DNA from: Kosakonia oryziphila
Lineage (GTDB): Bacteria > Pseudomonadota > Gammaproteobacteria > Enterobacterales > Enterobacteriaceae
Assembly: GCF_900094795.1 (NCBI RefSeq)
Contig: NZ_FMBC01000002.1
Coordinates: 1 to 64,000 of the forward strand
DNA: 64,000 nucleotides
Direction: 5' to 3'
The stretch's first letter is position 1, and every line of letters starts with the position of its first letter. The notes below the pieces were generated by a model. It had not been told where the DNA came from. It saw only the letters and a list, made by a program, of their open reading frames with translations, and ran no database searches. Shown piece after piece: positions 23,957 to 43,636 of this stretch. The translations under genes were made by a program, and so were the position numbers.

Positions 23957-26900
23957 TTACCAGTCAGCGTACGGCGTCAACGGCTGCGGAGGCATATCCA
24001 TGTCGCCCTGCCAGCCCGCCATTGAATACCGCACGAACAGAATGCCGTGGCTCGGAGTGTAATCCTTCGCCTGCTGAATATCGATACCAGCGCCAATCGA
24101 CCAGTGCGATGTGACACGCCGTTCCACCAGCAACCTTGCGGTATAACCGAACCCGTTCGAACTGCTGCCTGCGCCTAAATTATTTTTATCCGCATACATT
24201 GCCGTACCGTCCGGGAAAAACTGGTTATCCGGGATCAGGTTCTGCAACGGATAACGTAGAATCGAGTCCGTCTTCGAGTGCGACCACGAAACCGAACCAC
24301 CCAGCTCCCACGACCAGTTTTCCGTGCGTTTGCGCCAGTTGACCGGCAAAGCAAAAGAGATATATTGCTGCGGGCTGTAGTAACCACCCTGGCCGAGCGA
24401 ATAACCGCTCAGATCTTTATCGTAGTGCCACAACATATTGTTGACGCCAACGGTCAACCGCTCGTTGTTTTTGTTGATCAGCTTGTAGTAGTAGCCGGTC
24501 ATCCAGCGGACGCGCCAGTTATCTTCGACGTTTTTACCGGTGAGAGTGTCGGCGTTCAGGCTCGACCAGACGCCGTTAGCTTCACCTTTATCGTAACTGA
24601 TGCTGACCCCACCGCCGGTCGCACGCACGCCGCCCCAGGTAGTGCCGGTATTCGGGTCTTTCTGCCCGGCAAAGGCCAGAAGTGAGCTGGAGATCGGACG
24701 CCGATGCGCGTTAACCGTATAACCAATGGGGCCGAGATCGCTACTGTAACTCACGCCGCCAACCACATCGACAACATCAAATCCCATCGGCGTGGTGCCG
24801 ATATCCGCCGCCCAGCTACGGTTTTGCCAGCCGACGGCAACGCTTGCACCGTTCGCGGTCTGGCTGGTGCTGCCGCTACACGGCGTAGCGGAACATGTCC
24901 CCCACCTCGGATCATAAGTGCCGTTGGTGGTGGCAAAACTCCCGGCATCCATATTGACAACGTCGGTGCGAAAGAACATGCGCCCGTCCGATAGCGGCGC
25001 ATCAACCTGCAACATGGTGGTATGCGCTTTCAGGTCAGAATAACCACCCGTACCGCTGGAACCCCAGTAATCATGTTGCAGGGTGGCGTTAACATCTTGC
25101 TGACGGTAAAGATCCGCCGCATCGCTGCGTATGCCGCGCTTCAGCCAGTCATCTTTTTCATCGTTGCGCGTCAGTCGGGTAAAGCTGTCATTATCCGCCG
25201 GGCGCGTAGTAGTAATACTGGAAGCGACCATCGCATCTTTCCAGGTTTCCAGCGCTTGCTGCGGTTCGCCATTTTGCGCTTCGAAACGGGCAGCATCGCG
25301 TAGTACCAGCGCACTTGCCATTGATGGCGGTAGAGATTTAGCCTGCGGTACCAGCACACTGAAAGCCTGCTGCGCGCTGGCGCTATCACCGAGCGACGCC
25401 TGCACCAGCGCAATACGCCGTTGAGTATTGATGGAACGTGGCTGTGTCGCCGTCGGCCCGGCCAGTTTCGCCAGTTGCTGGCGCGCCGCCATCTTATTGC
25501 CTTCTGTGGTATACACTTCCGCAAGGCCGAGTAATGCATCCTCATTGGCCGGTTCACGGTCAAGTACGCGCTGGTAATATTGCCGGGCCGCGCTGAAGTC
25601 GCCGCGCTGCTGCGCCCAGTCAGCCAGCGTTGAATCAATACGCGTGGAAGCTGGTTGCTGGTTTAAGAAGGCAATCGCTTGTGCTTCGTCGCCGCTATCC
25701 CGTAGCCTGTTCGCTTTATCCAGTAACTGGTTGGCTTGCAACCGGTCGGCCAGCTCCTGAATATTGCTGTTCCATTTAGCTTTCGGCAGCCAGTTGAGAT
25801 GATTCAGTGCCGCCATTTCCTGATTATTGCCCGACAAATAAAGCCCAAAGGCAAAGACCTGTTCTGGATCATCCGGCTTTTGCACGGCCAACTGACTCAT
25901 CAGCGAATCGGCCTCGCCACGCCTTGCGGACTGACGTAAATCGCTGGCCAGTCGATAAGTTATCCAGACGTCGCCGGGCGAGAGCACCAGCCGTTTACGT
26001 TGCAACTCCGCGGCCTGCGCCCATTGCCCCTGGTTCTCCAGAGCCGCGGCCTGTTGCGATAAACGCTCGTTAGTCATGCTGCGTTCAATATCGTCAATGC
26101 TGCGCCGCTGACTGGCGGAGAGCGACTGAATAAAACGTTCTGCTTTTTCCGGCGACTGGGCGCGATAAATGTTCGCCAGACCGCGCACCGCATTGCTGTT
26201 GCCGCTGTCCATGCGCAGTGCCTGACGATAGAAACCCTCTGCCGCCGCATTATCCTTGCGCGCCATCGCCGCATCGCCGAGGCCCAGCACCGCATAGCTG
26301 TCGGTGTTATCAATGCTACGTGCTTGCTGGTAAAGACGCTCGGCCTGCGCTGGATTATTGGCTTTCAGCGCCGCATCACCCTGCTGGATCAACAGCCAGT
26401 AGCGGTTCACTTTCAGCAGACTGTCCCATTTGCTACGGCTGCCGCTCGTCGGATCCATAGCGATGGCTTTCTCAAACTGCGTTACCGCACGGGCGCGATC
26501 GCCTTGTTGGGAATACGCCTGCCCCAGCGCGCCCACAGCTTCGCTATCGTTATGGTTAGCATTGACCGTCTGCTGCAATTCCCCCACCGCCTGCGCACCT
26601 TTACCCGCGTCCACTGCCGCAAGGCCCGTGGCGCGAGCGCGAAACGCCGGATCGGCCATCTGTTTTTGCTGCGCAGCAAGCAGTGTACGGGCGCTGTCAA
26701 CAGCATCACCTGCACTGAATATCGTCAGAAAATGCTGTAACGCTTTCACGCTGGCATCACTGACCGGCATGTTCTGAAGTTGCTGATACCAGAGTGTGGC
26801 AGCCGCATCGCGTCCACTGCTCGATTTCGCCATCTGCTCCAGCACAGCATAACCTTCCGCGTCATGACCATCGGCAAACAGCAACTGCGCCAGTGAGTTT

Positions 26901-27454
26901 TGCAACTGATCGTTGCCGGGATAACGGGCGTTCAGCCTTTTTAGCTGATTCACGGCTTCCGCACGGCGCGCCGGGACTTTCGACACCAGCACCCAGTACT
27001 CGACCGCTAAATCGCCATCCGGCGCATTACCTTTAAACAGCGCATCGTAGGCGGCAATCGCTTCCTGTGTATGCCCGGTCGTGGCCTGTAAACGCGCCTG
27101 CTGCAACGCCTGGCGCCCCTCCGCCGTAGAGAGCGACATCGCCAGCAGTGAGGAGTGGTAGGCCCCGGATTCTGGCGCAAGTAGCTTCATCCGATCGAGT
27201 TGCTGTTGCGCGCCGGCATTGTCGCCCTGGCGCAGCAAATAGCGGAAACGGGCGGCAATCACGTCCGGGTTGTTCGGATCGATCAGTTCAAGGCGATAGA
27301 GCGACTGACGGACTAAATCTTCGCGCCTGGTTGCTTCCCCCAGACGCACCTGTTCCAGCAACTGTTGCTGTGCGGCTGTATCCGCCGAGCGCGCGGCGGG
27401 TGCCAGCGCGAGGCCAAGTGAGAAACAAAGAAGACTTACTGTGAACTTGCGCAT
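23957..27454 (-). CDS. bcsC: Cellulose export protein BcsC (operon I)
   Basis: Outer-membrane exporter of 1165 residues. A signal peptide ([17 protein letters not shown]) is followed by about 19 TPR repeats in the periplasm (to about residue 780) and a C-terminal beta-barrel (about 820–1165) ending [19 protein letters not shown]. The sequence is close to E. coli BcsC along its length. The start at 27454 overlaps the end of bcsZ by 19 bases. It is last in the minus-strand operon bcsRQABZC. With an amber codon upstream in bcsA, it may be exporting little unless operon II supplies glucan. Confidence 0.97.
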
Positions 27455-28548
27455 TCGTGGCCCCAGTCAGGTTGTAACTCACCACGAGGGGTGAAACGAA
27501 AACGGTGCTCATCCCACCCTTGTCCAAACAGGGTAAGAACATAGCTGTAGTAGGCATCGTCACCGGGAAAATGGTCTGCGACGTTCTGCCGCTGCCGGGC
27601 CTGAGCATCGCGATCCTGTAAAAATGGCAACAGCGCAGCAGCAAAACCAACCGGCCCGTTACCGTGGATCTTGCCGGTTGCTACATCCACTTTTTCCGGA
27701 GCCAGGTTATTTTCCTTTGTGACCGTCGCCATCGGTTTAAACTTCGCCAGCAACCGCGCTTTCTGCGTGTCGCTGTCATGCAGCATGCCAGCCCACAAAT
27801 AGACGCGAATCGCATCATAGCTTCCGATCAGCATCTTTTCGTTTTCGCTTTTGAGTTGCCAGCCCTGTCCCTGTTGATACCGCACCCAGTCCGGCGAAAA
27901 ACCTTTTGGCGCGGTCTCCAGCAGCAGCCGCAGATTGGTTTCGCGCAGTGTTGTCCAGGGCGCGCCGAAACGGGTGAAATAGCTCGCCAGTTGCGGCGGC
28001 AAATAGCTGGGGTTAAAGCGCCATGCGCTGTTATCGGCAAAGCCGATTTTTCCCGGTAGCAACATCGACCCAAGCCCAGTCACCTTCACTACCTCTTCTT
28101 TGGCGATGCGGTCTAACAGCGCTTTCCCCAGGCGGGTGTAAGCCTCGTTTTTCCACAAGCGCCCGGCTTCCAGCAGTGACCAGGCGATCCAGAGATCGGC
28201 ATCGGAAGCCGAATTGGTATCCAGCACCGTCCAGTTTTCTACATCTTTTTTCCCCCACAGCCAGGCGGGAAGATGGTCGCTGAGCGAGCCTTGCGCCAGG
28301 TTGTTTTGCGTCCATTGCAACAAGCTCTCGAATGCCTTGCGATCGTTAGCAGCCAGCGCAAAGAACAGCGCATAGCTTTGCCCTTCCGAGGTGGTGATTT
28401 TGCGCGCATCGCCAGGATCCACCACCCGTCCACCATCGCTGATATAGGCCTGTTTAAAATGCTCCCAGGCAGGCCAGGTGCAGGCGGCGCGCGTACTCAT
28501 CGCCGCCAGCATCAGCGCCATCATCACCACCCAACGTAGCGCCTTCAT
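27436..28548 (-). CDS. bcsZ: Periplasmic cellulase BcsZ (operon I)
   Basis: Glycoside hydrolase family 8 endo-beta-1,4-glucanase of 370 residues. The signal peptide runs to about residue 21 ([21 protein letters not shown]). The general-acid Glu is in [14 protein letters not shown], the GH8 signature is [16 protein letters not shown] and the base Asp lies in [11 protein letters not shown]. It trims cellulose during secretion and affects its crystallinity. It overlaps bcsC by 19 bases and lies six bases after bcsB, so it is in the operon. Confidence 0.97.
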
Positions 28549-28554
28549 TACTGA

Positions 28555-30927
28555 TTACTCATGATCCGAATCAAGACGGCGGCGGCTGATAATCCGCAGC
28601 AAGCGCCACAGTACCCATGCCAGCAATACAACGCTGACCGCCGCCAGAATGGCAAGCAGTACCGGATGGTTCGCCAGCGCATACCAGATACGCTCAAACC
28701 ACGGCAAATGGCCGACATAGTAAACATCACCTACGCGCAGACCGTTAACACCGGATTCACGGATCACCGTCACTGAGCCGAAAATCGCCGCACGCTTACC
28801 ACTGTCGTTCATGGCATTGTTCAGCAGTTCGTAGCCACGCGGGCTGTCCGCCAGTAACGCCACAACGCTGCGCTGATCGTTGAACGGCGACTGAAAGCTA
28901 ATCACTGCCGCCATTGGGCCATCGGAGCTGACTGCCGTTTGCGCATCGGCTTTGCGGTCGGCAGAATCCGGTTCACTTGTCATGAATGGCGACTGGCGCA
29001 GCGGCGTTTTCACCCAGCTTTGCGTCGCATTCACCAGCAGGTCGATCTTCTCGTCATTCTTTAACGGTTGCGGGATCGAGCCGATGATCATGATGTCGGC
29101 ATCTTTGCCCTGCAACTGGGTAGCATCATTGGTCAGTTGCATATTAATGGCCGGGAAGCCGGTTTGCGCGCCAATGGTGCCAAGCGTGTCCAGCAGCGTA
29201 CCAACCTGTGCAGGCGTCGCCTGCGCCGGGGTAACAATGATGGTTTGCGACAGATCCGCCATCCGGCTAAACGGAAAGCCTGCGTTAGCAAAGGCGCGTA
29301 GATCCGGCATGGCGATAAAGTGGTAATACTTTGAGAAATCGATGGTTGACTCGTCGCCAATCACCACACGGTTCGGTACTTGCTGGAACGTCATGCAGTT
29401 ATCGATACTGCCGCCCGGCATTGGATTCATATACTGGAAGTCGAAGCGTAACTGATTGACCGCCCCGAGTTTCAGCGCCGGAATCGACACATCCGTTTTG
29501 CTATCCAGAAGACCTTGCAGTACCGGCAGATGCAGCAACAGACGGTTAGTGTCCTGGTTGCTGGTCAGGTTGAAGTATTGCAGGAACTGGTTATTCAGGC
29601 TGATATCCATGCGCGAGCTATCTTTGGTCAACGGCGCGGTGTAACGATAGCTGAGATTCATATCGATACCGGTGCTGCGCAGCAGATAGAGATCCGGTGG
29701 CAAATTCAGCGACACGTTGATGGATGAAGGCTCCAGCCCGGTGGACTGCAACTGTTCCTCATAAGTTTTCAGCTCGCCGAAGCTCACCGGACGGTCAGTA
29801 CGCACCCAATTCGGCGCGTCATAGGGCTGGCGAGCCAGTAGCGGTTTCACTTCGTCCACCGTGACGCTATCGCCACGGAACAGCACGTTCCCCTGAGCGA
29901 TACCTTTTGCCGCCTGCAACAGATCTTTATCGTCACGCCCCATCACGATCAGCAGCTTCACATACGGGTTATTCGGATGGTTGATCATGCTGATGGTTGG
30001 CCCTTTTACTGCGGGCGCATCACGCAGGAAATCCGGGCGTTTATCGTTAGTGGCGAACACAATGGCATTACGATCCGGCAGGCTGTTGTAAGAGACCGGA
30101 AAAGTCTGGCCGCGCCAGCCAGCACGGGAACCGAACCACGAAGCGATGATCGCCGCAGCCTGCTGCTGCGCGATGTCCGGCACACCGGCAAAGACCATCG
30201 GCAGGGTTAAAGCCCTATTATCACGCGAGTCGAAGAACGGCACAGGGAAGTGGGAGAGATCGTTTTTCAGTGGCAGACTTTGGTAGGTCATATCAAGCGA
30301 ACTGCTACGACCGATATCCATCCACAGCGTGCTGCTGGCCGGGTTTTCACAAACATCGCGATAGTGGCCGACAAACTCCAGCCGCACACGGTTGAAATCG
30401 GTAATAAACAGCGGGTTGATCGGCACCTGCGCCAGCGTTTTCTTACCGAGCTGCTCTTTGGTGACCGGCAAAACACCCATCAACTCATCATTCAGATAAA
30501 CCTTTAACTGAGATTGTACCGGCAACAGTGACGGTGATGGCGTGTACTCAAGATTAAGTACCGCTTTTGACACCACTTCGTCGCTGCGAACGCCAAATTC
30601 AACACCACCGTCCGGGTTAATGCCGCGTAGCACCATGCTGCCCGGCGGTGGTGCGATCTGCGCGAAGGTGAGTTTGACATCACGGGATGGCGAATCTATC
30701 GCCACCACTGGCGCATTAACGCCTGACATCGCCTGGCCCACAGTATTCCCTGCGGTTGGCGTCAGCGATTCAGCTTGCTGCGGCGCAGGCGTTGCGACCG
30801 GCTCCATAGCCGGTGCGACAGCCGGAGCATTAGGCGCCGGAAGCGAGGGCGCGGCAGAAGTCATCATCGGGGTCAGGGTGCTCACCCCTACCACCACAGC
30901 ACAAATCCAGGAAAGTTTTCTTTTCAT
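28555..30927 (-). CDS. bcsB: Cellulose synthase regulatory subunit BcsB (operon I)
   Basis: Periplasmic, membrane-anchored subunit of 790 residues that guides the glucan from BcsA across the periplasm. A signal peptide (about 1–25) is followed by an Ala/Pro-rich linker, alternating carbohydrate-binding and flavodoxin-like domains, and a C-terminal membrane helix (HPVLLAILAAVSVVLLAWVLWRLL, about 755–778) needed for BcsA activity. It lies 25 bp after bcsA and 6 bp before bcsZ. The frame is intact. Confidence 0.97.
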   Translation of the reverse strand: MKRKLSWICAVVVGVSTLTPMMTSAAPSLPAPNAPAVAPAMEPVATPAPQQAESLTPTAGNTVGQAMSGVNAPVVAIDSPSRDVKLTFAQIAPPPGSMVLRGINPDGGVEFGVRSDEVVSKAVLNLEYTPSPSLLPVQSQLKVYLNDELMGVLPVTKEQLGKKTLAQVPINPLFITDFNRVRLEFVGHYRDVCENPASSTLWMDIGRSSSLDMTYQSLPLKNDLSHFPVPFFDSRDNRALTLPMVFAGVPDIAQQQAAAIIASWFGSRAGWRGQTFPVSYNSLPDRNAIVFATNDKRPDFLRDAPAVKGPTISMINHPNNPYVKLLIVMGRDDKDLLQAAKGIAQGNVLFRGDSVTVDEVKPLLARQPYDAPNWVRTDRPVSFGELKTYEEQLQSTGLEPSSINVSLNLPPDLYLLRSTGIDMNLSYRYTAPLTKDSSRMDISLNNQFLQYFNLTSNQDTNRLLLHLPVLQGLLDSKTDVSIPALKLGAVNQLRFDFQYMNPMPGGSIDNCMTFQQVPNRVVIGDESTIDFSKYYHFIAMPDLRAFANAGFPFSRMADLSQTIIVTPAQATPAQVGTLLDTLGTIGAQTGFPAINMQLTNDATQLQGKDADIMIIGSIPQPLKNDEKIDLLVNATQSWVKTPLRQSPFMTSEPDSADRKADAQTAVSSDGPMAAVISFQSPFNDQRSVVALLADSPRGYELLNNAMNDSGKRAAIFGSVTVIRESGVNGLRVGDVYYVGHLPWFERIWYALANHPVLLAILAAVSVVLLAWVLWRLLRIISRRRLDSDHE

Positions 30928-30952: not shown

Positions 30953-33556
30953 TCACGTCGTTGGTTGCTGCACGGCCATATTCCGCGCCGGACGACGCGG
31001 AATAAATGACACCACCCAGGCCACCAGATCGGTGAATGAGCGGAAAATCACTTTGACGGACGGCGGAGCAAATTCCGCGAGATGGCGATAGCCACGGAAA
31101 CCCAGTTTCAAAATATCAAACAGACTTTCCAGAGGCTTATCTTCCGGGAAGCTGTCCTGCCACAGCGCCCACGTATCTGCACGGGCAAAGGTACACTGCA
31201 CAAAATCGATATGTTGTTTGGTGGTGAGCGGCATCAGTTGCAGGCCGACCTCATTGCCAATGACGCGCGCTACCATAGTCGGAAATGCATACTCATGCTG
31301 GCCGCGCTTCAATAGCAGGTTTACTTTCTGCCCTTCCAGCACCTGCGCCTGGCCATTAATCTTGATGCCCAGGCCGCCGTCGGAGAAGTCATGGACGGTA
31401 CAGGAGAAAAGATGCCCATCTTCACGAGCAATGGCCGCTGGCATGGAGATTTCGACACGGTGCGCGCGGCGCACCTGTTTGCTTTCGACCGATACCGCTA
31501 CCGCGCCACCAAGAACAACCATGTTGTAGAACACCCAGACCATGCTGACGAACACAGTGAGTACTTCGTTCTCCGGGCCGTAGAAATAGCGCCAGATCCC
31601 CACCAGCACGCCCGCCAGGTTAAGCAGTACCAGGAAGATGTAAGGGCGAGAGATCACCCAATCCACATACTCCTCTTTCACCAGCCCGCCTTTGGCGGTG
31701 ACGTTAAACTTACCTTTGTGCGGGTTGAACAGCGCCACCAGTGTAGGCGGCGCGATATACCATGCCAGCACCGTTTCGTAGATCTCGCTCCAGAAAGAGT
31801 GGCGATATTTCCCCTGAATCTTCGAGTTAGTCAGGCTGGCGTGAATCATGTGCGGCAGCACGAACAGGGCGATCATCAGCGCCGGAGCGTAAATGATGTA
31901 GGCATGCAACAGCAGAAACGCCAGTGGCGCAGTCAGAAAGATCAACCGCGGGATACCCGATAAGAAGTGGAGCATGGCGTTGGCGTAACACAAACGCTGC
32001 GGCAGTTTCAGCCCTTTACCAAGCAGCGGGTTGTCGAGGCGAAAAATCTGCACCATGCCACGCGCCCAGCGAATACGCTGACCAATGTGCGCCGAAAGGC
32101 TCTCGGTTGCCAGCCCTGCCGCCTGCGGAATACGCATATACGCAGAGGTATGCCCCAGGCGGTGTAAACGCAGCGAGGTATGAGCATCTTCGGTGACGGT
32201 TTCCACCGCAATCCCACCAATCTGGTCCAGTGGCCCACGACGAATAACCGCGCAGGAGCCGCAAAAGAAAGTGGCATCCCACATGTCGTTGCCATCTTGT
32301 ACCAGACCATAGAACAACGTGCCTTCGTTAGGCGTTTTACGAAAGCGTCCGAGGTTACGTTCAAACGGATCCGGCGAGAAAAAGTGGTGTGGCGTCTGCA
32401 TCATTGCCAGCTTTTTCTCTTTCAGGAACCAGCCCATTGTCATTTGCAGGAAAGAGCGCGTCGGAACGTGGTCGCAGTCGAAAATCGAGACAAACTCGCT
32501 CTTCGCATATTTCAGCGCGTTATTAATGTTCCCGGCTTTCGCATGCTCATGCGTCGTGCGGGCGATATACTCCACGCCCACCATACTGGCGAACTGGCGA
32601 AACTCTTCGCGGCCGCCATCATCAAGGATCCAGATTTTGAGTTTGTCTTTCGGCCAGTCGATACCGAGCGACGCGTAAATGGTGTTTTTCACCACGTTGA
32701 GATCTTCGTTATAGGTCGGTACGAAGATATCCACCGACGGCCACAACGACATATCTTTCGGTAATGGCACCGGCTGGCGGTTCAGCGGCCAGGCAACCTG
32801 GAAATAGCCCAGCACCAGCACTATCCAGGCGTAAGTTTCGGCGAACAGCAACACCAGGCCACACACCAGGCTGACCGGATCGTCCCAGTTGAGGGTGGAG
32901 GTATAGCGCCACCAGATATAGCGACAAGAGACAGTCAGCGACAGCACAATCAGCATCAGCGCTGAAAAGCGTCCCGGAATGCGCCGCACCAGCAGCGCAA
33001 CGCCCCACAGCAGCAGCAGGAAAACGAACTGCGACAGCGGGTTAAACGGCTGTGTAATACACAACAGGGCGAGGATCAGCGAAAACACCACAATGACGCC
33101 TAAAATCAAGCGCCGCAGATGCGGGCTGAGATGACCAAGCTCTTTTTTGTGATCGAGATAACCCGAGCGATGCGTCACGCGCTCCGGCAAGGTATCAAGC
33201 CAGTGATTCCAGCGCCCACGCAACGCGCGGATATGGGCCAAGCGTTGACGCCGCGCCGATTTCGGTGGCCCCCAGGGTAATGTCACCAGCAACCACAGGC
33301 TTTGCAGCAGATAGCGCGCAGGATCAAGCGGGCGTGGTCTGTCAGGATCGATATGCGGAAACCAGTACTGCTGCTGCGCCCGCAACTGCTGCCAGCGCGG
33401 ATGCTCAAGCGGGATAAACAGCCAGCCCAGGATAACCCAGAAGCAGCCAGAGGCCGCGCTGAACTACGACGCGCCATGCTGGCGATAGTGCTGATAGCGC
33501 GCGCGTAAGCGTGCGCTGACCGGCGGGATCAGCAGCCAGGTAGCCGGGCCGCTCAT
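30953..33556 (-). pseudogene. bcsA: Cellulose synthase catalytic subunit BcsA (operon I) with an in-frame amber codon
   Basis: Family-2 glycosyltransferase that polymerises UDP-glucose. The natural start at 33556 overlaps the bcsQ stop (ATGA) and reads MSGPATWLLIPPVSARLR, like E. coli BcsA. Codon 31 (33464–33466, complement CTA) is TAG, between GAS and FSAASGCFW, where E. coli has a sense codon. The frame then runs open to 30953, about 867 codons in all. It has DDGG, FDCDHV, TEDAH and QRIRW motifs and a PilZ domain (QVRRAHR, DFSDGG). The remainder could start only at a TTG at 33385 without a clear ribosome site, losing 57 residues. Either the gene is disrupted or there is a base-call error. 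Confidence 0.85.
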
Positions 33557-34311
33557 GTCAGGTTCCTCTCTCGCTTGTCACCTTCGCGTGGCTGCGCGCA
33601 ATGCAGCAGGCACCAGTTCGCCAGCGTTACCATCTCTTCTGCGGCCAGCGAATCGCTGCGGTATTCACCCAGGGGTTGTTTCGATGCCAGACACTCCGCC
33701 AGCGCTTCATCACGATGGATAGTAGTCGGTAGGATACGCGTCTGGCTTTGCAGCCAGACCTGCCAAAGATCGTCTTGTAACTGGCTGCCGATCCGCAGGT
33801 CGTTAATCAGAATATGCGACCCCGCAGGTAACCGCTGCTGATGCAGACGGATATGGCAATTAATATCGGGTTTGATAATGGTGAAAATATGATCGCACAC
33901 GGCGACGAATTGCCGCGTCAACGGTGAAAAACCGTACGGTAGATCGATGAGCACCCAGTGATACTGTTGCTGCGTTTTTAACGCCTGTAAAAGAGAAGCA
34001 GGCTGGTTTAACGCGTCAAGTTGATCAATAGAATCCCACTCGCTCGCTGTGAGTTGACCGAACGGCAATATATCCAGTTGCGAGGTGTAGCGCATACCGG
34101 CATCGCGCCAGTCCTGGCCATCAAGTACTGAGCGCGCCCAGCCGCCACGGCTGGCAAAATCGACATTAAATGACAGCCGCAGAAGATTGTCGGGACAGGC
34201 ATCAATAACCAGCACCGACTCGCCTAATAATTGCAATGACCAGGCCAGAGCCGCTGTAATCGATGTTGTTCCCACACCGCCACGGATCCCTTGTAACCCC
34301 AGAATGGTCAT
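33553..34311 (-). CDS. bcsQ: Cellulose biosynthesis ATPase BcsQ (operon I)
   Basis: MinD/ParA-like P-loop protein of 252 residues that, with BcsR, is needed for E. coli-type cellulose secretion and polar localisation. The deviant Walker A is GIRGGVGTTSITAAL, lacking the usual Lys at the end as in E. coli BcsQ, and the Walker A′ segment is VLVIDACPDNLL. It is intact here, unlike the K-12 gene. It starts 14 bp after bcsR and overlaps bcsA by four bases. Confidence 0.96.
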   Translation of the reverse strand: MTILGLQGIRGGVGTTSITAALAWSLQLLGESVLVIDACPDNLLRLSFNVDFASRGGWARSVLDGQDWRDAGMRYTSQLDILPFGQLTASEWDSIDQLDALNQPASLLQALKTQQQYHWVLIDLPYGFSPLTRQFVAVCDHIFTIIKPDINCHIRLHQQRLPAGSHILINDLRIGSQLQDDLWQVWLQSQTRILPTTIHRDEALAECLASKQPLGEYRSDSLAAEEMVTLANWCLLHCAQPREGDKRERNLT

Positions 34312-34325
34312 CTACAGTTGCCTTC

Positions 34326-34514
34326 TTATTGTTGACGGGATAATTCAGCCAGCAGTGGCCAGCGTTTAATAGCTGCTGCCAACTGTTCTCGCTGGGAAAT
34401 ATCGGCGTAATCTATTTCGGGTAGTGAAAAGGCCTTACTCAGCGCCAAAAAATCATTTTGGAATGTATAACCCAGGGTTGGGTCTGCTTGCGTTTTGGGT
34501 TCATCATTATGCAT
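34326..34514 (-). CDS. bcsR: Cellulose biosynthesis small protein BcsR
   Basis: Protein of 62 residues, MHNDEPKTQADPTLGY onwards, matching E. coli BcsR over its full length, including FQNDFLALSKAFSLPEIDYADISQREQL. It forms a complex with BcsQ (and BcsE) beneath the synthase. The start at 34514 gives the family's length; an upstream extension to 34580 in the same frame lacks similarity. It is the first gene of operon I. Confidence 0.93.
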   Translation of the reverse strand: MHNDEPKTQADPTLGYTFQNDFLALSKAFSLPEIDYADISQREQLAAAIKRWPLLAELSRQQ

Positions 34515-34682
34515 TGTATTGTGGCCCAATCTATTTGAATAGAAAGATTGTAGCAAGGCATCATGGCCGATAAAACGCATTTACATGCTAAAACTGATAT
34601 TCTTTAATTTCAATCTTATGTTTATTTTTTAGTTTTCGCTAGTAAACTGAGATACAAACAAATTTGTTTCAAGAGGGACATC
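34515..34682. promoter_or_regulatory. Divergent promoter region of bcsR and bcsE
   Basis: 168 bp of AT-rich sequence between the divergent starts of bcsR and bcsE, so it must carry both promoters. For bcsE, AGAGGG at about 34672 precedes the GTG at 34683. I could not assign convincing −35/−10 boxes. Confidence 0.6.
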
Positions 34683-36242
34683 GTGAACCCCATATTTTCT
34701 ATTGGCATTCGGTCTTTATGGGACGAACTGCGTCATATGCCTACGGGCGGTGTCTGGTGGCTAAATACCGATCGCGAAAATGACGCATTTAGCCTTCTGA
34801 ATCAAACTATTGCACAGCAAGATGCCGATGCAAACGTCGCGGTCATCGGTATGGATCACGATCTACAGAACATTCTTAAACTGAATAAACATCACGGCCC
34901 CAAAATAATCCATCTATTTTCCATGCCAAACCAGAGCAAAAGTCTATACTTTTTCTCCCGAGATTTACTTTGCACTATTGAACCTGAGAATTATTTACTT
35001 CTACTGCTCTGTGCTAATAATGCCTGGCAGAATGTTCCTGGTCACCGTATACATCAATGGTTAGAAAAAACTCATGCGTGGGCGAAATATCATAACTGCA
35101 CCTTGCTTGTTATTAATCCTGGCAGCAACAATGACAAACAAGCCTCGATTTTAATGAGTGAATATCGCTCACTATTTGGTCTGGCAAGTTTACGCTATCA
35201 AAATGGTATGCATCTTTACGATATCGCCTGGTGGTGTAATGAAAAAGGGATAAGCGCCAGGCAGCAACTGGTTCTCCATCACCATGACGACCAGTGGCAA
35301 TTAGCGAAGCAGGAAGAAACCGCCGTACAACCGCGCAGCGATGAAAAAAGAATATTAAGTAATGTGGCGGTTCTGGAAGGTGCACCACCGCTTTCCGAAT
35401 ACTGGTCTTTATTTAAAACAAACGAAGCCCTGTTTGAAGAAGCCCGCTCAAGCCAGGCGGCAACGCTGATTTTCTCCCTGGCGCAAAACAACCAGATAGA
35501 CAGCATAGCCCGCCAGGTACATACCCTGCGTCGTCAGCGCGGCAGCGGTTTAAAAATTATCGTCCGTGAAAGTCAGGCCAGCCTGCGCGCAACTGATGAG
35601 CGATTGTTGCTTGGCTGCGGCGCGAACATGGTTGTTCCCTGGAACGCACCGCTGTCGCGCTGCCTGACGCTGATTGAAAGCGTGCAGGGACAACAATTCA
35701 ACCGGCTGGTGCCGGAAGATATAACCTCCCTGCTTTCCATGACCCAGCCTCTGAAGCTGCGTGGTTACCAGCCGTGGGATATCTTCTGCGATGCGATAAG
35801 CAATATGGTCAATAACCAACTGCTGCCGCCGGATGGCAAAGGGGTGATGGTTGCGCTGCGCCCGGTACCGGGTATTCGCGTCGAGCAGGCACTTACCCTC
35901 TGTCGCCCTAACCGCATGGGGGATATCGTCAGCATGAGCGATAACCGACTGGTGCTCTTTTTGTCCTTTTGCCGGGTCAACGACCTTGATACTGCCCTGA
36001 ACCATATTTTCCCGTTGCCGACGACCGACATCTTCTCAAACCGAATGGTGTGGTTTGAAGATAATCAGATCGCCGCAGAGCTGATGCAAATGCGGACGCT
36101 GACGGCGGAAAAACTGCCTGAACCGCTGCCTGATACTGCCAAAACGAAGAGAGTCATTAATGTCGAACATGACGGTACTGGCTGGCGTCGTATTCCGGAG
36201 CCTTACCGCTTATTCAGTGACACCACGGAGCGCACATCATGA
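34683..36242 (+). CDS. bcsE: c-di-GMP-binding protein BcsE
   Basis: Cytoplasmic protein of 519 residues (former DUF2819/GIL domain) that binds c-di-GMP and boosts cellulose output. The RxGD binding motif is visible as RMGD in [12 protein letters not shown]. The sequence follows E. coli BcsE from [19 protein letters not shown] onwards. The start is GTG; where E. coli has an ATG three codons upstream this sequence has AAG, so GTG is the best choice. The stop overlaps the bcsF start (ATGATG). Confidence 0.95.
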
Positions 36243-36436
36243 TGTCAGTTAGCGATATCGTTCAGCTTATCGTCTTCTGTGCGCTAATCTTTTTCCCACT
36301 GGGCTACCTTGCGCGCCACTGGATACGCCCTATCCGGTCCGCGTTTCGGATCTTATTTACCAGACCTCGCTATGTAAAACCGGCAGGAATGTTGCGCCGG
36401 GAATCGTTCGTCAAGGCAGACCGCAAACATGACTAA
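36239..36436 (+). CDS. bcsF: Small membrane protein BcsF
   Basis: Protein of 65 residues with one transmembrane helix ([20 protein letters not shown], about residues 6–25) and a basic tail containing [14 protein letters not shown], as in E. coli BcsF. It recruits BcsE to the synthase and works with BcsG. It overlaps bcsE by four bases and bcsG by eight, so the three are translationally coupled. Confidence 0.95.
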
Positions 36437-38108
36437 TTCATCTACGACCACTGAAACGCCTTTGCCGCTGTGGCAATACTGGCGCGGGCTCTCCGGCTGG
36501 AATTTCTATTTTCTGCTGAAATTCGGTTTGTTATGGGCGGGCTACCTTAACTTTCATCCACTGCTGAACCTGGTATTTATGGCATTCCTGCTGATGCCGT
36601 TGCCGCGCGTGAAGTTACATCGTCTGCGTCACTGGGTCGCACTGCCAATTGGTTTTGCTCTCTTCTGGCATGACACCTGGCTGCCCGGCCCAGAAAGTAT
36701 TATGAGTCAGGGCTCGCAGGTTGCGGGTTTCAGCGCCGACTATCTGCTTGATCTGGTGACCCGTTTTATCAACTGGCAAATGATCGGCGGGGTGTTTGTC
36801 CTGCTGGTGGCGTGGCTGTTTTTGTCGCAGTGGATCCGCGTTACCGTGTTTGTCGTCGCCATTATGATCTGGCTGAATGTGCTGACCCTGACCGGGCCGG
36901 CATTTAACTTATGGCCTGGCGGCCAGCCAACCACCACAGTCGCAACGACCGGCGGCGCTGCGGCTGCAACCGTCGCGGCGGCAAGCGGTACCCCGGTAGT
37001 GGGCGATATGCCGGCGCAAACCGCGCCGCCGACCTCGGACAACCTGAATGCTTATCTTGCCAGTTTTTACGCCTCGGAAGAGAAGCGCCAGAGCACTTTC
37101 CCGGCTCAGCTTCCCGCTGACGCCCAGCCGTTTGACCTGCTGATCATCAATATCTGTTCTCTCTCCTGGGACGATGTCGAAGCGGCAGGGTTAATGTCGC
37201 ACCCACTGTGGTCGCATTTCGACATTGTATTTAAACACTTCAATTCTGCTACTGCTTACAGCGGCCCGGCGGCGATTCGTTTGCTGCGCGCCAGTTGCGG
37301 CCAGTCGTCGCACAAAAACCTCTATCAGCAGGCTAATAACCAATGCTATCTGTTTGATAATCTGTCGAAACTTGGTTTTTCCCAGCAGTTGATGATGGAT
37401 CATAACGGCGAGTTTGGCGGCTTCCTGAAAGAGATCCGCGATAACGGTGGCGTGCAGGTACCGTTGATGGCTCAGTCTGGCCTGACGCCTGTGCTGCTCT
37501 CTTTTGATGGTTCACCGGTCTATGACGATACCGCCGTGCTGAACCGCTGGATGGAGTCGGATAGTTTCAAACAGGGGCAGCGCACTGCAACCTTCTATAA
37601 TTTGCTGACGCTGCACGACGGGAACCACTATCCGGGGGATCGTAAAACGGCGGATTACAAGCTACGCGCGCAGAAACTGTTTGATGAGCTGGATACCTTC
37701 TTCACGCAGCTGGAAAAATCCGGGCGTAAAGTGATGGTGGTGCTGGTGCCGGAACACGGGGCGGCGCTGAGGGGCGACAAAATGCAGGTTTCCGGCCTGC
37801 GTGATATTCCAAGCCCGTCAATTACCAACGTACCGACAGCGATTAAATTCTTCGGCATGAAAGCGCCGCATCAGGGCGCGCCGATTGAGATTAACCAACC
37901 AAGCAGCTTCCTGGCGATATCAGAACTGGTGACGCGCGTGCTGGATGGCAAAATCTTCGCCGAGGACAGCGTCAACTGGCAGCAACTCACCAGTAATCTG
38001 CCGCAAACGGCGCCGGTTTCTGAAAACGCCAACGCCATTGTATTGCAGTACCAGAACAAGCCATATGTTCGCCTGAACGGTGGCGACTGGGTACCGTATC
38101 CGCAGTAG
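36429..38108 (+). CDS. bcsG: Cellulose phosphoethanolamine transferase BcsG
   Basis: Inner-membrane enzyme of 559 residues: about five N-terminal helices (to about residue 160), an Ala/Thr/Pro-rich linker, then a periplasmic alkaline-phosphatase-like domain that puts phosphoethanolamine on cellulose. The nucleophile Ser lies in [21 protein letters not shown], and the metal-binding segment [11 protein letters not shown] is present. If BcsA of operon I is lost, its substrate would have to come from operon II; that is an inference. Confidence 0.96.
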
Positions 38109-38147: not shown

Positions 38148-39143
38148 TTAGCGCTGTTGCGCCAGCCACACCAGCATCTTCAGGCTGGCAGAGTAGTAAT
38201 CATCCTGCGCGGTGATTTGCGGCTCGGCCAGTCGTTCTCCCAGCGTTAAATCACGTACCGCCAGCAGCCCGTCGTTCATCATATAAGGCGCTGTTTCGTT
38301 GGTCGTCACATTCACCCAGGCAGGCGTCTGATTGCGGTTAAAGCCTTGCCACCAGTTACGCCACGGCGTCAACAGCGCGCTTTGCGGATCCTGCCAACTG
38401 ACATACAGCGGAATACGGATAGCGTCATAACTCATGCGCGGCGGCCACTCTTTTGCCGGGGAAAGCCTGCCATCCGCCGCCAGCGAAACCCAGTCTGTCG
38501 GGAGCTGCGCTTTACCAAAGCGCATTTTTCCCAGCAGTTTTTGCCCGTCGGTGATCAAATCGCGCCACACCACCTGGTGGCTCCGTTTCGCGAAATCCTG
38601 CCACGCAGGGAAGATGAAATAGGCGGGGTTCAGGTTCACATAGGTGTTGAGATTGAAGCCGTTCGCGCCCGGCAGCATCACGCGGTAACCGGCATAACTC
38701 ACCACAGTATGTTTCAGCACGGCCTGTGTGATAGCGTCTGACGCGCTGGTATAAGCCGGAACATTCCAGCGCTGCCCCGCTTTCAGTAGCGCCCAGGCCA
38801 GCAGAACATCGCCATCTGTCGCATCGTTTTTATCGGCAACAGGGTCGGCTTCCACCGGGTTATAACGCCAGAAAAACAGGCCGTTATCTTTATTCCTCAG
38901 GGTCTTATTCGTCCAGTTCCATATGCTGTCAAAGGCCGCTCTGTCATCACTGGCCACCGCCATCAACATGGCGTAACCCTGGCCTTCAGTATGGGAAACG
39001 TTTTTATTGCCAGTATCGACGACGCGCCCATCCGGCATCAAAAAACGAGCTTTATAACTATCCCAGGCCGCAGAAGCCTGGGAAAATGACGTAAATAACA
39101 GACTCACCATCACCACCAGTGCGGCGAATACGCGCTTCAACAT
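38148..39143 (-). CDS. bcsZ: Periplasmic cellulase BcsZ (operon II)
   Basis: GH8 endoglucanase of 331 residues from MLKRVFAALVVMVSLLFTSF. That is a signal peptide; the frame is open further upstream, but this is only the bcsD gene read in another frame. The acid Glu is in SHTEGQGYAMLMAV and the GH8 signature is ATDGDVLLAWALLKAG. The base Asp lies in MSYDAIRIPLY. It is distinct from the operon I copy and closer in type to the Komagataeibacter/Dickeya BcsZ. It is last in operon II, after bcsD. Confidence 0.95.
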   Translation of the reverse strand: MLKRVFAALVVMVSLLFTSFSQASAAWDSYKARFLMPDGRVVDTGNKNVSHTEGQGYAMLMAVASDDRAAFDSIWNWTNKTLRNKDNGLFFWRYNPVEADPVADKNDATDGDVLLAWALLKAGQRWNVPAYTSASDAITQAVLKHTVVSYAGYRVMLPGANGFNLNTYVNLNPAYFIFPAWQDFAKRSHQVVWRDLITDGQKLLGKMRFGKAQLPTDWVSLAADGRLSPAKEWPPRMSYDAIRIPLYVSWQDPQSALLTPWRNWWQGFNRNQTPAWVNVTTNETAPYMMNDGLLAVRDLTLGERLAEPQITAQDDYYSASLKMLVWLAQQR

Positions 39144-39147
39144 GGAA

Positions 39148-39630
39148 TTACTCACTTGGGTTAGCGTAACGGAAGAGAACATCCGACACAGAATAGAGCC
39201 TTTCATGGGTAAAAACGAGACTTGTCGCGCCGCCCTGCTCCCGCATCCAGCGGGTATATAGTCCCTCAAGCACGGCGCAAAAAGCAAAGCACCAGCGGGT
39301 CCGGTGCGCTTCTTCCCGCGCGACCGGCAAACCCTGATGATGAAATGCCAGCCCATCATCACGGGTGTCGATATCGATAAAACCCCAGTTAAATAGCGCC
39401 AGTTGCGCATTGATATTGGCTTCCAGTTCGCCCACGGTTTCCGACGGCGGAAGCGGCGTGCGTTCCGCCATTGCATCGCCCATCTGTCGCAGGAACGGCA
39501 GACTTTCTGCTTCACCGACGTTGCTTACCATGCCGTCAATCATTACGCTCAGCAGATCGAACCAGCCCGGCGCCGTTTGCTGCTGCTGAAACCACGAGAG
39601 CAACGGCGTATCAGAAGTGTGTGTCATCAT
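39148..39630 (-). CDS. bcsD: Cellulose crystallisation subunit BcsD
   Basis: Protein of about 160 residues related to Komagataeibacter BcsD, the periplasmic ring that bundles glucan chains. The recognisable parts are IDGMVSNVGEAESLPFLRQMGDAMAER, EANINAQLALFNWGFIDID and VLEGLYTRWMREQGG. Two adjacent ATG codons (39630 and 39627) follow AGGAGACAA. The first overlaps the bcsC stop. BcsD is the marker of class I bcs operons and is absent from E. coli-type operons. Confidence 0.92.
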   Translation of the reverse strand: MMTHTSDTPLLSWFQQQQTAPGWFDLLSVMIDGMVSNVGEAESLPFLRQMGDAMAERTPLPPSETVGELEANINAQLALFNWGFIDIDTRDDGLAFHHQGLPVAREEAHRTRWCFAFCAVLEGLYTRWMREQGGATSLVFTHERLYSVSDVLFRYANPSE

Positions 39631-42600
39631 TTGTCTCCTAACATGTACCGGAGCCAAATCCCGGCGGTGCTTTCGTTATAATTGCCGAAGGTGTCGTAGC
39701 CGACTCTGCCACCCACCGTCATATTTTTATTCACGTTGTAATCCAGCCCCGCATGGAAATTGTAGCCGATACCGTTTTGCGAAGTACCCCGGTACTGCGC
39801 CTCTTTAATAAAACCCAGATTCGCCAGTTGCTGGAGCATCTTCTGTGCCTCAGGCTCGGTCGGGAAATAGTCGCTTTTATCCTGGGTATAAGACTGATAA
39901 CCCACAGCGCCGCCAATACTTAGCTTCCAGTTATCGATTTTCTGCGAAAGATCGACCGGTAAAGAGACGCTGACATAGTTCTGCGGGCTGAAGTAACCGC
40001 CCTGGCCGTAGGTGAAATAGCTGAGGTTTTTCGAGAAATCCATCCAGCTCACGCTCAAACCGGTCTGCAACTGGCGGAAATCGTCGTGCCAAGGGCGTAA
40101 ATAGACCCCGGCGTTGGCGTTCATGCTGGTGTTACTGGCAACGTCCGTTCCGAGATAGCTGTAACCCCCACCGCCGATGTAAAACCCGGCATCGCCATCA
40201 TCGTAACTTAACTGTACCGATCCGCCGTTTTTGGTGACCTGCCCCCAGCGCTGACCGGAGTATTTATCCTGTAGCCCGACATACGATAGCAGGCTGTCGG
40301 TGATCGCGCGGCGCTCGCCGGTAAAGATCAGCGTCAGGTAGTTGGTCAGTTTCGGCGACCACTTCACGCCGCCCACCAGCGAAGTAAGATCCTGCCCGAG
40401 CGGCGTACTGCCGATATCCAGCTTGTAGCTATCGCCGCTGAGCGCCATATTCAACTCCACACCGCTGGCATTTTGCGAATCGGTAGAGGCGTTAATCGCG
40501 TCGTTGTAATTCTTCTTGTAGTTCGATGCACTCAGGCTTTTCAGGCGGCTCGAACTCAATAAAGAGGTCAGGTTATTGTAACCCTCATCGGTAAACGGCG
40601 TTAGTTTGCTGGCATCGGCATAACGTGCCAGATCGGTAAATTTATCGCTGCCGTCCGTTGCCGTAGAGCTGTTGGCATTGCTGATAGAAGTGGCAATATT
40701 GCTCGCCGCATCCGCCAGCGGGTTTGAACCATAACGACGCCAGGCGTCTCCTGAAGCGCTACCGGAACTGAGGCTGACTGGCGTGGCAGTAAATTCAAAG
40801 CGTGCATCGCCGAACGGCGAGCTGGACCAGGTCAGCGGCGCTTTCGCTTCCGTTAACTTGCTGGTGCCGCTTTCCCCATCGCGACCGCGAATATCCACTT
40901 CACCTTGCAGCCACATTCCGGTTTTTTCGTTCATCTGCTGCATCATGTCATCCACCTGGCGCAGCGTACGGCTTTGCGCCGTTTCCACTGGCAGATCGGT
41001 ACGCATGGTGCCCGGCAGATTACTGCCCGGCTCTCGGGCGACCTGCGCCACTTGCCACGGTAACGTCTGCCCATACAGCGACTGTGGCGCAGCCGTGTCA
41101 GCCGTGGTTTTACTGGTGGTCATAAACGGATTATCAGCCAACAAAACACCACCAATTGTCGGCGTGGCCTCGCTGTTGGTTGACTCCAGCCCAACCAGCT
41201 TGCCGCGTGCGCTACGCAACAAAGTCATCGCCTGCTGATGGTTGCCCTTCGCCTCTTCCAGCCGCGCCAGCAACAGCAGGCGTTCCGGGGAACTGTTACT
41301 GTGCAGGCCATTCGCCAGCGTCTGTGCTTTATCAACGTTATTTTCCGCCAGCGCCACATCAATCGCGCCGACACGCGCGGCCTGATCGTCGCTGTCACGC
41401 GTCATCAGGTAGTCATACAGCACGCCCGCTTCTTTGTTCATTTTGCCGCTCTGGTAGAGACGGCCCATGGCGAACATCAAATCGGTATTCTGCGGATCGC
41501 TTTGCAACGCGCGAATCAGCTTGTCATAGGCGGCGGCATAGTTGCCCTGCTCGCGCAGACGATCGGCTTCATTAATCACATAACCGTTACGCACGCCCGC
41601 CAGCTGCGCCGGGGTGCTGCGCGCCTGCATCTCCGGGCTGGAAACAAACGTCTGCGCTTCCTGGTTCAGCCCGGCCTGATTCAGCACGGCAATTTGATCG
41701 GCGTAATCCCCGGCATTGCCCTGCACACCCTGCTGCATATTCGCCCGCACCAGCGAAACCGCTGTTGTCAGATCGCCGGTTTGCGCCAGCATTCGCGCCA
41801 GTTTTCCGGCATCAGCCGGGCTTTCCGGCGGCGTGCTGGCAAGCGCTTTCAGGGTATTCGACGCGGCAACAGTATTGCCCTGCGCCAGGTAACGATCGGC
41901 GGCCGCCATTTGCAGGTTGTAGTTCACCCGGCGGGCGAGATCGCGCGTCTGGCTGTTTTGCCCCGCAGGCGAGATCCGCGACAACAACGAGCTGGCCTGC
42001 TGCCAGCCGCCATTTTCACTGGCGAACAACGCAGCGGCATACAGGGAGCTGGCACCCGCGCCGCTGCTTTGCGCCGGAAGCATGACATTAGCCGCTTCAC
42101 TCTGCTGGCCGGATTGCTGTAATAACCGCGCCAGATCGAGACGCAACCACGGATCGTCCGGCAAGCGCTCAACGCCCTGACGCAACAGGACAATCGCCTG
42201 CGGTGTATTGCCGCTGGCGGCAAGTTGTTGCGCCTGGCGACGTAGCGGATCGCCCGGCGCACCAGTTACCACGCGCGGTTGTAGCTTCGCCTGCAAGCTG
42301 GCCGGTAAGGTTCGCAGTATGCTCTGGGCTTCTGCCGTCTTATTTTGATCGCGCAGAACGTAATAGAGGTTTTCGCGCGCCGGGGCATTCTGTGGCTGGT
42401 CGGTCAGAATAGCGCGCAGCGCCTGTTCCGCCTGTGCGTAATCTTTGTTCTGGCGTAACACATCAGCGCGAAACAGTTTTGCCGCCGTTCCCTGCTCGCC
42501 GCTCTGCTGCGCCAGCGGTGCAGATAAGGCCAACGCCTGGCTAACATTGCCCTCTTTCAGCGCCTGTTGCGCCTGCGCCAGTTGGCCGTAAAATGCCGCA

Positions 42601-43622
42601 TCTTCCGCCTGTGTTTTGCGCTCGGCGGAGGCATCGCCGCCCTGGCTCGCTGCCCGGTTCAGGTATTGCGCCGCCGCCTGATAGTCACCATTGCGCTGGG
42701 CGATATACCCCATGCCCGCCAGTGCATCAGCATCCTGCGGGTTGGTTTGCAATACCTGTTCAAACTGCCGCTTCGCTGTACTGCTGTCGCCGCTGTTCAG
42801 TGCGCTAAAGCCCGCGCCTTTAGCCGCACCGCCGATGTTTTTACGGTAATAATCCTGAACTTCGCTGTCCTGCGGATGGCGCTGTAGCCAGGTGTCGTAG
42901 AAGCGCTCATCGCCGGACTGCGGCCCAAGCCACAGCAGTGCCTGACGTAAACCGGCATCGGCATCTTTGCTGCCACTGGCCATCGGTTCGAGCAGTAAAA
43001 TTCCGTCGCGACGCGTCTCTTCACGCCAGGTGAGCATCTTGCCCAGCGCCACGCGCGCAGCATTGTCCTGCGGATTCTGCGCCACAATGTGCTGCATCTG
43101 CGCCAGCGCTTGCGGATAGAGCGCTTTGTCACTCGCCATCGTCAGGTAGTATTCCGGCGCCAGACCCGGCGGCGGCGTATTGCCGTTAAACAGGCTACGC
43201 CAGGTCTCCAGCGCAGCCGGAATATTGCCGCTCCGCGCCTGCTGACGCGCCAGCGTGAGCTGGCCTTGCGGCACCTGCGCCATCTGTCTGGCGTTATCCA
43301 GCGCCTGTAATTCGCTATCGCCGGGCGCGGTTTGTGCCAGCCGCGCACGCCACTGCGCGGCGGTCTGCAAATCACCATTTTGCTGTGCCCACAGTGCCAT
43401 CAGGTACATCGCCTGGGTGTTATTAGCATCAACCATTAACACCTTTTTCAGTGACTCTATCGCCAGGTCGTCATGGGATTTTTCATGCCAGTAGTTGGCC
43501 TGATCGAACAGGGCTTTTAAGGCCGCTTCATTCGGCGCAGCCTGTGCCTGCCCGGCAACGCTAAGCGCAAGTGCGCCGGAGAGGCAAACGGTCGTCCACC
43601 GTCGGGCGGTTTTGTTTCGCAT
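39627..43622 (-). CDS. bcsC: Cellulose export protein BcsC (operon II)
   Basis: Exporter of 1331 residues: signal peptide (MRNKTARRWTTVCLSGALALSVAGQAQA), a long periplasmic TPR region to about residue 960, and a C-terminal BcsC beta-barrel ending in ESTAGIWLRYMLGDK. It is longer than the operon I copy and has a different C-terminus. A GTG at 43640, overlapping the bcsB stop and preceded by GGAG, is an alternative start that adds six residues. The ATG at 43622 fits the signal peptide better. Confidence 0.94.
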   Translation of the reverse strand: MRNKTARRWTTVCLSGALALSVAGQAQAAPNEAALKALFDQANYWHEKSHDDLAIESLKKVLMVDANNTQAMYLMALWAQQNGDLQTAAQWRARLAQTAPGDSELQALDNARQMAQVPQGQLTLARQQARSGNIPAALETWRSLFNGNTPPPGLAPEYYLTMASDKALYPQALAQMQHIVAQNPQDNAARVALGKMLTWREETRRDGILLLEPMASGSKDADAGLRQALLWLGPQSGDERFYDTWLQRHPQDSEVQDYYRKNIGGAAKGAGFSALNSGDSSTAKRQFEQVLQTNPQDADALAGMGYIAQRNGDYQAAAQYLNRAASQGGDASAERKTQAEDAAFYGQLAQAQQALKEGNVSQALALSAPLAQQSGEQGTAAKLFRADVLRQNKDYAQAEQALRAILTDQPQNAPARENLYYVLRDQNKTAEAQSILRTLPASLQAKLQPRVVTGAPGDPLRRQAQQLAASGNTPQAIVLLRQGVERLPDDPWLRLDLARLLQQSGQQSEAANVMLPAQSSGAGASSLYAAALFASENGGWQQASSLLSRISPAGQNSQTRDLARRVNYNLQMAAADRYLAQGNTVAASNTLKALASTPPESPADAGKLARMLAQTGDLTTAVSLVRANMQQGVQGNAGDYADQIAVLNQAGLNQEAQTFVSSPEMQARSTPAQLAGVRNGYVINEADRLREQGNYAAAYDKLIRALQSDPQNTDLMFAMGRLYQSGKMNKEAGVLYDYLMTRDSDDQAARVGAIDVALAENNVDKAQTLANGLHSNSSPERLLLLARLEEAKGNHQQAMTLLRSARGKLVGLESTNSEATPTIGGVLLADNPFMTTSKTTADTAAPQSLYGQTLPWQVAQVAREPGSNLPGTMRTDLPVETAQSRTLRQVDDMMQQMNEKTGMWLQGEVDIRGRDGESGTSKLTEAKAPLTWSSSPFGDARFEFTATPVSLSSGSASGDAWRRYGSNPLADAASNIATSISNANSSTATDGSDKFTDLARYADASKLTPFTDEGYNNLTSLLSSSRLKSLSASNYKKNYNDAINASTDSQNASGVELNMALSGDSYKLDIGSTPLGQDLTSLVGGVKWSPKLTNYLTLIFTGERRAITDSLLSYVGLQDKYSGQRWGQVTKNGGSVQLSYDDGDAGFYIGGGGYSYLGTDVASNTSMNANAGVYLRPWHDDFRQLQTGLSVSWMDFSKNLSYFTYGQGGYFSPQNYVSVSLPVDLSQKIDNWKLSIGGAVGYQSYTQDKSDYFPTEPEAQKMLQQLANLGFIKEAQYRGTSQNGIGYNFHAGLDYNVNKNMTVGGRVGYDTFGNYNESTAGIWLRYMLGDK

Positions 43623-43636
43623 TGTGGTCACCCTTT

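Follow-up and report, generated by a model that had tools for sequence, protein, structure and literature searches.

An in-frame amber codon early in bcsA of the E. coli-type cellulose operon of Kosakonia oryziphila, in a genome lacking a cellulose operon of its nearest relatives

Does Kosakonia oryziphila still make its E. coli-type cellulose synthase when the gene for it carries a stop at codon 31? The window, the whole 64-kb stretch of DNA analysed here, comes from contig C41 of a draft assembly (4.81 Mb, 129 contigs) and carries two cellulose synthase operons, of which operon I, of the E. coli type, is the one affected. An earlier note, made from the sequence alone, placed the start of its bcsA at 33556, overlapping bcsQ by ATGA, and read codon 31 as TAG within a frame that stays coding on either side. 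The sequence and the ends of the open reading frames bear out the start, and the lesion is laid out as follows.

30953..33556, minus strand: bcsA of the E. coli-type operon I, its frame broken at codon 31; matches NF008558 with the stop read through
33554..33556, minus strand: ATG at which bcsA starts, sharing ATGA with the bcsQ stop; from the sequence and the ORF ends
33564..33572, minus strand: Shine-Dalgarno-like stretch for bcsA, pairing with the anti-Shine-Dalgarno at -7.9 kcal/mol
33464..33466, minus strand: in-frame amber TAG, codon 31 of bcsA; Trp in the four nearest relatives

The amber codon is real in the assembly. Read through the stop, the frame runs for 867 codons with no second stop and is 96.1-97.1% identical to four intact Kosakonia orthologues, as the claim of coding sequence on both sides requires; its product aligns gaplessly with E. 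coli BcsA (PDB 9fmv) from residue 5 to 863, upholding the claim of a premature amber in a conserved bcsA, and matches the E. coli-type BcsA family model (NF008558 / PRK11498) over its full length at 1697 bits against a cut-off of 992. It is these agreements, together with the in-frame TAG itself, that establish the point.

The stop falls in a domain with a specific role. In E. coli, the BcsA N-terminal domain, for which cryo-EM work has been published, is described as docking three copies of the phosphoethanolamine (pEtN) transferase BcsG (PMC11379886, PMC11470070) through loops at residues 8-10, 47-50 and 92-93 (PMC11379886), and the same two papers report it as absent from BcsA of Rhodobacter and Gluconacetobacter. 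Mapped by alignment, the domain and its loops lie here:

33116..33556, minus strand: region for the N-terminal domain of the E. coli-type BcsA, roughly residues 1-147; from the E. coli alignment, the CelA model (which begins at residue 145) and PMC11379886
33527..33535, minus strand: codons 8-10, opposite the first BcsG docking loop in the E. coli alignment (loop from PMC11379886)
33407..33418, minus strand: codons 47-50, aligned to the second loop (same source)
33278..33283, minus strand: codons 92-93, aligned to the third loop (same source)

This domain of the operon I bcsA is not one uninterrupted frame, owing to the TAG at codon 31. Around it, the bcsRQABZC and bcsEFG neighbourhood is present with its partner genes open; bcsQ and bcsG are named from family models and the others from gene order.

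33553..34311, minus strand: bcsQ, open; NF007460 above cut-off
34326..34580, minus strand: bcsR, open; named by gene order, start probably an inner ATG near 34517
28555..30927, minus strand: bcsB of operon I, open; named by gene order
27436..28548, minus strand: bcsZ of operon I, open; named by gene order
23957..27454, minus strand: bcsC of operon I, open; named by gene order
34683..36242, plus strand: bcsE, open; named by gene order
36239..36430, plus strand: bcsF, open over this stretch as read, its stop codon not located; named by gene order
36429..38108, plus strand: bcsG, open pEtN transferase; PF11658
45919..48087, minus strand: bcsA of operon II, open, without the N-terminal domain; profile match
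38148..45922, minus strand: bcsB, bcsC, bcsD and bcsZ of operon II, all open; named by gene order

The bcsR start listed is probably too early, because in the copy of the related genome G001 a stop directly precedes the conserved inner ATG (MHNDEPK). The second synthase operon announced in the earlier note is there and open; its bcsD protein has no NCBIfam match. In gene content the two operons match bcsII and bcsI of Kosakonia (Enterobacter sp.) FY-07, with bcsEFG between them, our operon I being the FY-07 bcsII (E. coli type) and our operon II its bcsI (with bcsD) (PMC4766428, PMC13141831).

Where did the stop come from? Codon 31 could be read in 95 of the 96 loci compared (all but locus L016). 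It is TAG in one row, that of K. oryziphila itself, and a sense codon in the other 94, at least six of which are the same contig from two collections; 80 of the rows are the best 80 of 222 loci found, more distant relatives lying outside the comparison. The four nearest Kosakonia relatives, K. sacchari (95% at the protein level across the first 352 residues), K. arachidis (94%) and the genomes G004 and G008, all have TGG (Trp), so a single substitution in the K. oryziphila lineage suffices to explain the stop. On a tree resting on one 3.45-kb locus around bcsA, this genome groups beside G001 with support of 100/99. A premature stop in a gene that is intact in relatives is the mark of a natural bcs loss-of-function allele, and bcsA bears it; the case that the earlier note set as speaking against such an allele, a TAG shared by all relatives, is ruled out across species by the sense codons in 94 of 94 other rows. 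Programmed readthrough or recoding of the stop was rejected as a candidate, the TAG not being conserved in relatives (1 of 95 rows).

How old is the stop? Codons at which this genome differs from four agreeing relatives number 8 nonsynonymous and 35 synonymous in bcsA, against 66 and 165 summed over seven sister genes (Fisher p 0.20; the bcsR row in that sum probably includes about 21 non-coding codons), and by this comparison with the four relatives no relaxed selection was detected in the remainder of bcsA. A simple bound limits the neutral share of this branch in bcsA to about 7-13% at most, and residues 148-867 are under strong purifying selection (w about 0.04-0.06). The codon changes, showing no relaxation, suggest that the stop is recent or that the remaining frame still works; the strong purifying selection past the stop fits a recent event, but equally continued function. 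A long-dead pseudogene was rejected, since the changes in bcsA are not tilted to nonsynonymous ones.

That constraint would also fit an error in the consensus, with a sense codon at position 31 in the genome and an intact bcsA, as would the draft state of the assembly with its 129 contigs and the occurrence of TAG at codon 31 in one genome only. We compared contigs C41 and C63 (430 kb) with the matching stretches of G004, keeping as gene-like those alignments with at least 8 base differences of which at least 60% fall at codon position 3; lesions touching less than 15% of a gene pass this filter, and those near gene ends are missed. It retained 319 alignments (215 and 104; 116,128 residues) and nine were flagged, three with lesions within gene bodies: bcsA W31*, a bisC-like gene and a yjjI-like gene. 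Among the other six flagged, r251530, r99379 and r8162 apparently have their stops ahead of the true start (by our own judgement of the starts), r23214 has a stop three codons before its end, r240109 is a doubtful short ORF and r81828 counts among the unclassified ORFs below. In r45950 the 77 first residues match at 79% in a different frame, and this part probably precedes the start of the gene. Survey rows with an excess at position 1 are antisense ORFs. The filter missed two broken genes, one yjiM-like (r264967) and one for a bcr-like transporter (r288388), and dropped a VOC-type gene (r257360) that matched in part only.

Five ORFs with a stop are unclassified in this survey, r81828 together with r239907, r172504, r137854 and r277058 (these four of 99-267 codons, with a position-3 share of 0.50-0.55), and they count for error, as does a tRNA-Leu copy on the other contig whose one-base deletion is found nowhere else in the 15-genome genus set and is possibly an error too. 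Against it, bcsA is the only clear full-length gene with a lone stop in its body among the 319 alignments, those five ORFs being unclassified; no single-base frameshift inside a gene body was identified on C41 and C63 against G004, where lesions near gene ends would be missed; and the bcsA locus is single copy in the genome and sits 33 kb inside the 152.7-kb contig C41, far from the contig end. The other identified broken genes on these contigs carry deletions or missing parts, and lesions of this kind, with no single-base frameshift seen, argue against a poor consensus. The lesion pattern thus appears to favour a real strain-level mutation. We infer that the stop is not a sequencing error, and regard such an error as improbable.

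The other lesions are given here under gene names of which bisC, yjiM and bcr were assigned by our own reading. Relative to G004, the bisC-like molybdopterin oxidoreductase gene, which sits just outside the window at about 69922 on C41, has a net out-of-frame deletion of 158 bases. On C63, the yjjI-like glycyl-radical enzyme gene (60520-61483) has a stop and missing parts, the yjiM-like remains (19446-19829) have a stop and have lost about two thirds of the gene, and the bcr-like transporter gene (8458-8610) keeps 51 of 388 codons.

If the stop is genuine, could it be decoded? Useful readthrough by a suppressor tRNA or by leaky termination draws support from the variety of residues at position 31 in the relatives' rows (W, A, G, S, P, R, C, V, M and I), which suggests that any inserted residue might work. 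A search of the genome with the Rfam tRNA family gave 66 matches (150 of 182 candidates scored), 65 of them called by ARAGORN, 64 with a full anticodon and one with an unreadable two-base anticodon; the remaining match scored 31.7 bits. None of the 65 called tRNAs (of 66 matches in this draft assembly) has the suppressor anticodon CTA, TTA or TCA. The survey is blind to tRNAs missing from the draft, and tRNAs for Ile-GAT, Ala-TGC and Glu-TTC are absent from those found. Nor does any other clear full-length gene on C41 or C63 carry a lone in-frame stop in need of suppression. With no such tRNA called and no second gene that would need one, readthrough seems to us very improbable indeed.

Two tRNA loci deserve mention. 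The middle one of three tandem tRNA-Leu(CAG) genes (C63, 52232-52314) lacks one base of the anticodon loop; the shortened sequence occurs in no other of the 15 genus genomes and is either a natural lesion or a consensus error. A degenerate tRNA-like sequence (C47, 84576-84653; 33.7 bits), called tRNA-Lys TTT by ARAGORN, lies beside a cold-shock-protein-like gene.

Could translation instead restart downstream of the stop? The earlier note had proposed restart at a weak TTG:

33383..33385, minus strand: TTG, codon 58, the first in-frame ATG, GTG or TTG past the stop; no Shine-Dalgarno support, and TTA in G008

An N-terminally shortened BcsA made from here or from a later start would make cellulose and recruit fewer BcsG copies or none, giving a poorly modified product. 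In its favour, the frame for the catalytic part is open and conserved, a product begun at TTG 33385 scoring 1628.7 against NF008558 (cut-off 992), and BcsA of other species is described as lacking the N-terminal domain altogether (PMC11379886). The proposed start itself fares poorly. Its best anti-Shine-Dalgarno pairing is -1.9 kcal/mol, within a background (500 random places) with a mean of -2.35 and a 5% tail at -5.8 kcal/mol, whereas the gene's own ATG reaches -7.9; none of the in-frame starts from codon 58 to 165 rises above this background (none reaches -5.8). The test is a weak one, because the start of bcsB is likewise unpaired. Ribosomes should only rarely reinitiate at a TTG that lies about 80 bases beyond a stop and has no Shine-Dalgarno sequence, and in G008, one of the four nearest relatives, codon 58 is TTA. 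A scan for promoters and terminators, to which we give no weight, gave one promoter-like site (2.7 expected) and six terminator-like sites (4.0 expected). The earlier note added that restart would trim a part that BcsA of operon II lacks anyway; operon II BcsA is indeed without the domain, but only residues 1-57 of about 147 would go, and with them two of the three BcsG docking loops, the third being kept. BcsG is, moreover, reported to affect BcsA integrity and to be essential for cellulose in some strains (PMC11470070). We consider restart quite improbable.

We therefore return to a null allele, and think it likely that a recent single-base substitution, W31*, has inactivated the bcsA of operon I, with predicted loss of the E. 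coli-type synthase and of the pEtN-cellulose machine. One base change would have converted the Trp codon 31 to amber; ribosomes starting at the normal ATG would release a 30-residue peptide and, as the in-frame start codons further down seem to be without a good ribosome-binding site, E. coli-type BcsA would be made in very small amounts or not at all. The operon I and BcsEFG machine for phosphoethanolamine cellulose is accordingly predicted to be inactive, and bcsE, bcsF and bcsG, all open, would be left without their synthase. Loss of the protein and of its polymer, like the phenotype, the protein level and any polarity on bcsBZC, is our prediction from the genome. It would probably be a mistake to annotate this strain as one that makes phosphoethanolamine cellulose.

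Stops early in a bcs gene are already known, and two of them come closest to this one. BcsA W55* and BcsQ Q178* are listed in E. coli ST95, and W55*, found in clade 3, is likewise a nonsense change of a Trp codon in the N-terminal domain that is counted as loss of function (PMC10881479); it lies 24 codons further downstream and belongs to a pathogenic E. coli clone, whereas the Kosakonia genome studied here has a second open synthase operon. The parallel that the earlier note drew with E. coli K-12 also holds: there a SNP from TTG to TAG in bcsQ, again one altered base that puts a TAG early into a gene of this operon, cost the strain its cellulose (PMC5944007), although the gene hit is bcsQ rather than bcsA and the phenotype, tested in K-12, is predicted here. 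In Kosakonia, no bcsA nonsense allele was found in the literature searched by title and abstract.

What could take the place of operon I? By its profile match, the BcsA of operon II is without the BcsG-docking N-terminal domain: it follows NF008558 from profile position 145 on and, at 827.5 bits, scores below the cut-off of 992. Lacking the docking domain, it might replace cellulose as such, not BcsG-modified cellulose; operon II, open and equipped with bcsD, might thus supply the plain polymer and should not make the modified one. The earlier note held that the loss could be tolerated by virtue of the second operon, which is sound in that operon II is open, and incomplete in two respects, the absent docking domain and the lack of a further operon, bcsIII, that the four nearest relatives possess.

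The Pfam cellulose synthase family has two copies in this genome and three in each of the four nearest relatives. In G004, the block with the third copy reads bcsA-bcsB-bcsC-bcsD and continues with three genes, one PAS-GGDEF, one galU-like and one cellulase-like, and on its opposite side stand PAS-GGDEF-EAL and PAS-GGDEF genes; the GGDEF and EAL domains come from a domain search, and the other names are presumptive, assigned by our own reading. In K. oryziphila the flanks of this block meet on contig C59 at 56305/56319; in G004 they are separated by 18.4 kb, and in 7 of the 15 genus genomes they stand about 18-22 kb apart around a bcsIII-type synthase. At this site (C59, 56305-56490), the bcsIII operon and its c-di-GMP genes are absent from the K. 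oryziphila genome, and what is kept is a decayed remnant of the end of a PAS-GGDEF gene (152 bases, 76.5% identity). That gene is full length at the same site in the bcsIII-site genomes G004, G008 and G010. Among the other seven genomes, those without bcsIII, five sites were inspected (G007 and G013 left out), and G003, G006, G009 and G012 have the gene at full length, whereas the stretch examined in G014 does not contain it.

The block in G004 agrees in gene order with the bcsIII reported for FY-07 (PMC4766428, PMC13141831), where, of the three operons, bcsIII alone is described as abolishing cellulose when removed, and the other two as transcribed at a very low level (PMC4766428). FY-07 has bcsIII (PMC4766428, PMC13141831), whereas K. 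oryziphila is without the corresponding block and its c-di-GMP genes; this absence is new here. Was the operon lost, or never gained? The distribution of bcsIII over the 15 genomes is patchy: the tree needs 5 changes, at least 4 of them forced, against a mean of 5.3 for shuffled labels. This count suggests frequent gains and losses, and the absence says less than one would gather from the four nearest relatives by themselves. The nesting of this genome among four carriers and the remnant of the PAS-GGDEF gene point to deletion in its own lineage, and bcsIII was probably lost in that way. The PAS-GGDEF gene beside bcsIII also looks interrupted in the sister genome G001, where two stretches match (residues 132-402 and 406-444), so K. 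oryziphila is not alone in showing decay of this gene.

The best-supported reading is, then, that bcsA carries a recent null allele of an ordinary kind, in a lineage without another cellulose operon of its relatives. The cellulose genes look complete at first sight, yet one synthase is probably dead, and the main operon of the related FY-07 is missing, probably through deletion. A more ambitious idea, for which we see some chance but which we would not favour, is that loss of bcsIII, and after it W31*, were successive selected steps by which one Kosakonia lineage has been shedding cellulose; the order of the two losses is one we would infer. If this were true, the convergent loss of cellulose seen in pathogenic E. 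coli, Shigella and Salmonella would extend to Kosakonia, and the sole synthase left would be one that BcsG cannot serve. With two lesions in one pathway, K. oryziphila offers a natural test case for whether loss of cellulose is selected in environmental enterobacteria, as it is in some pathogens.
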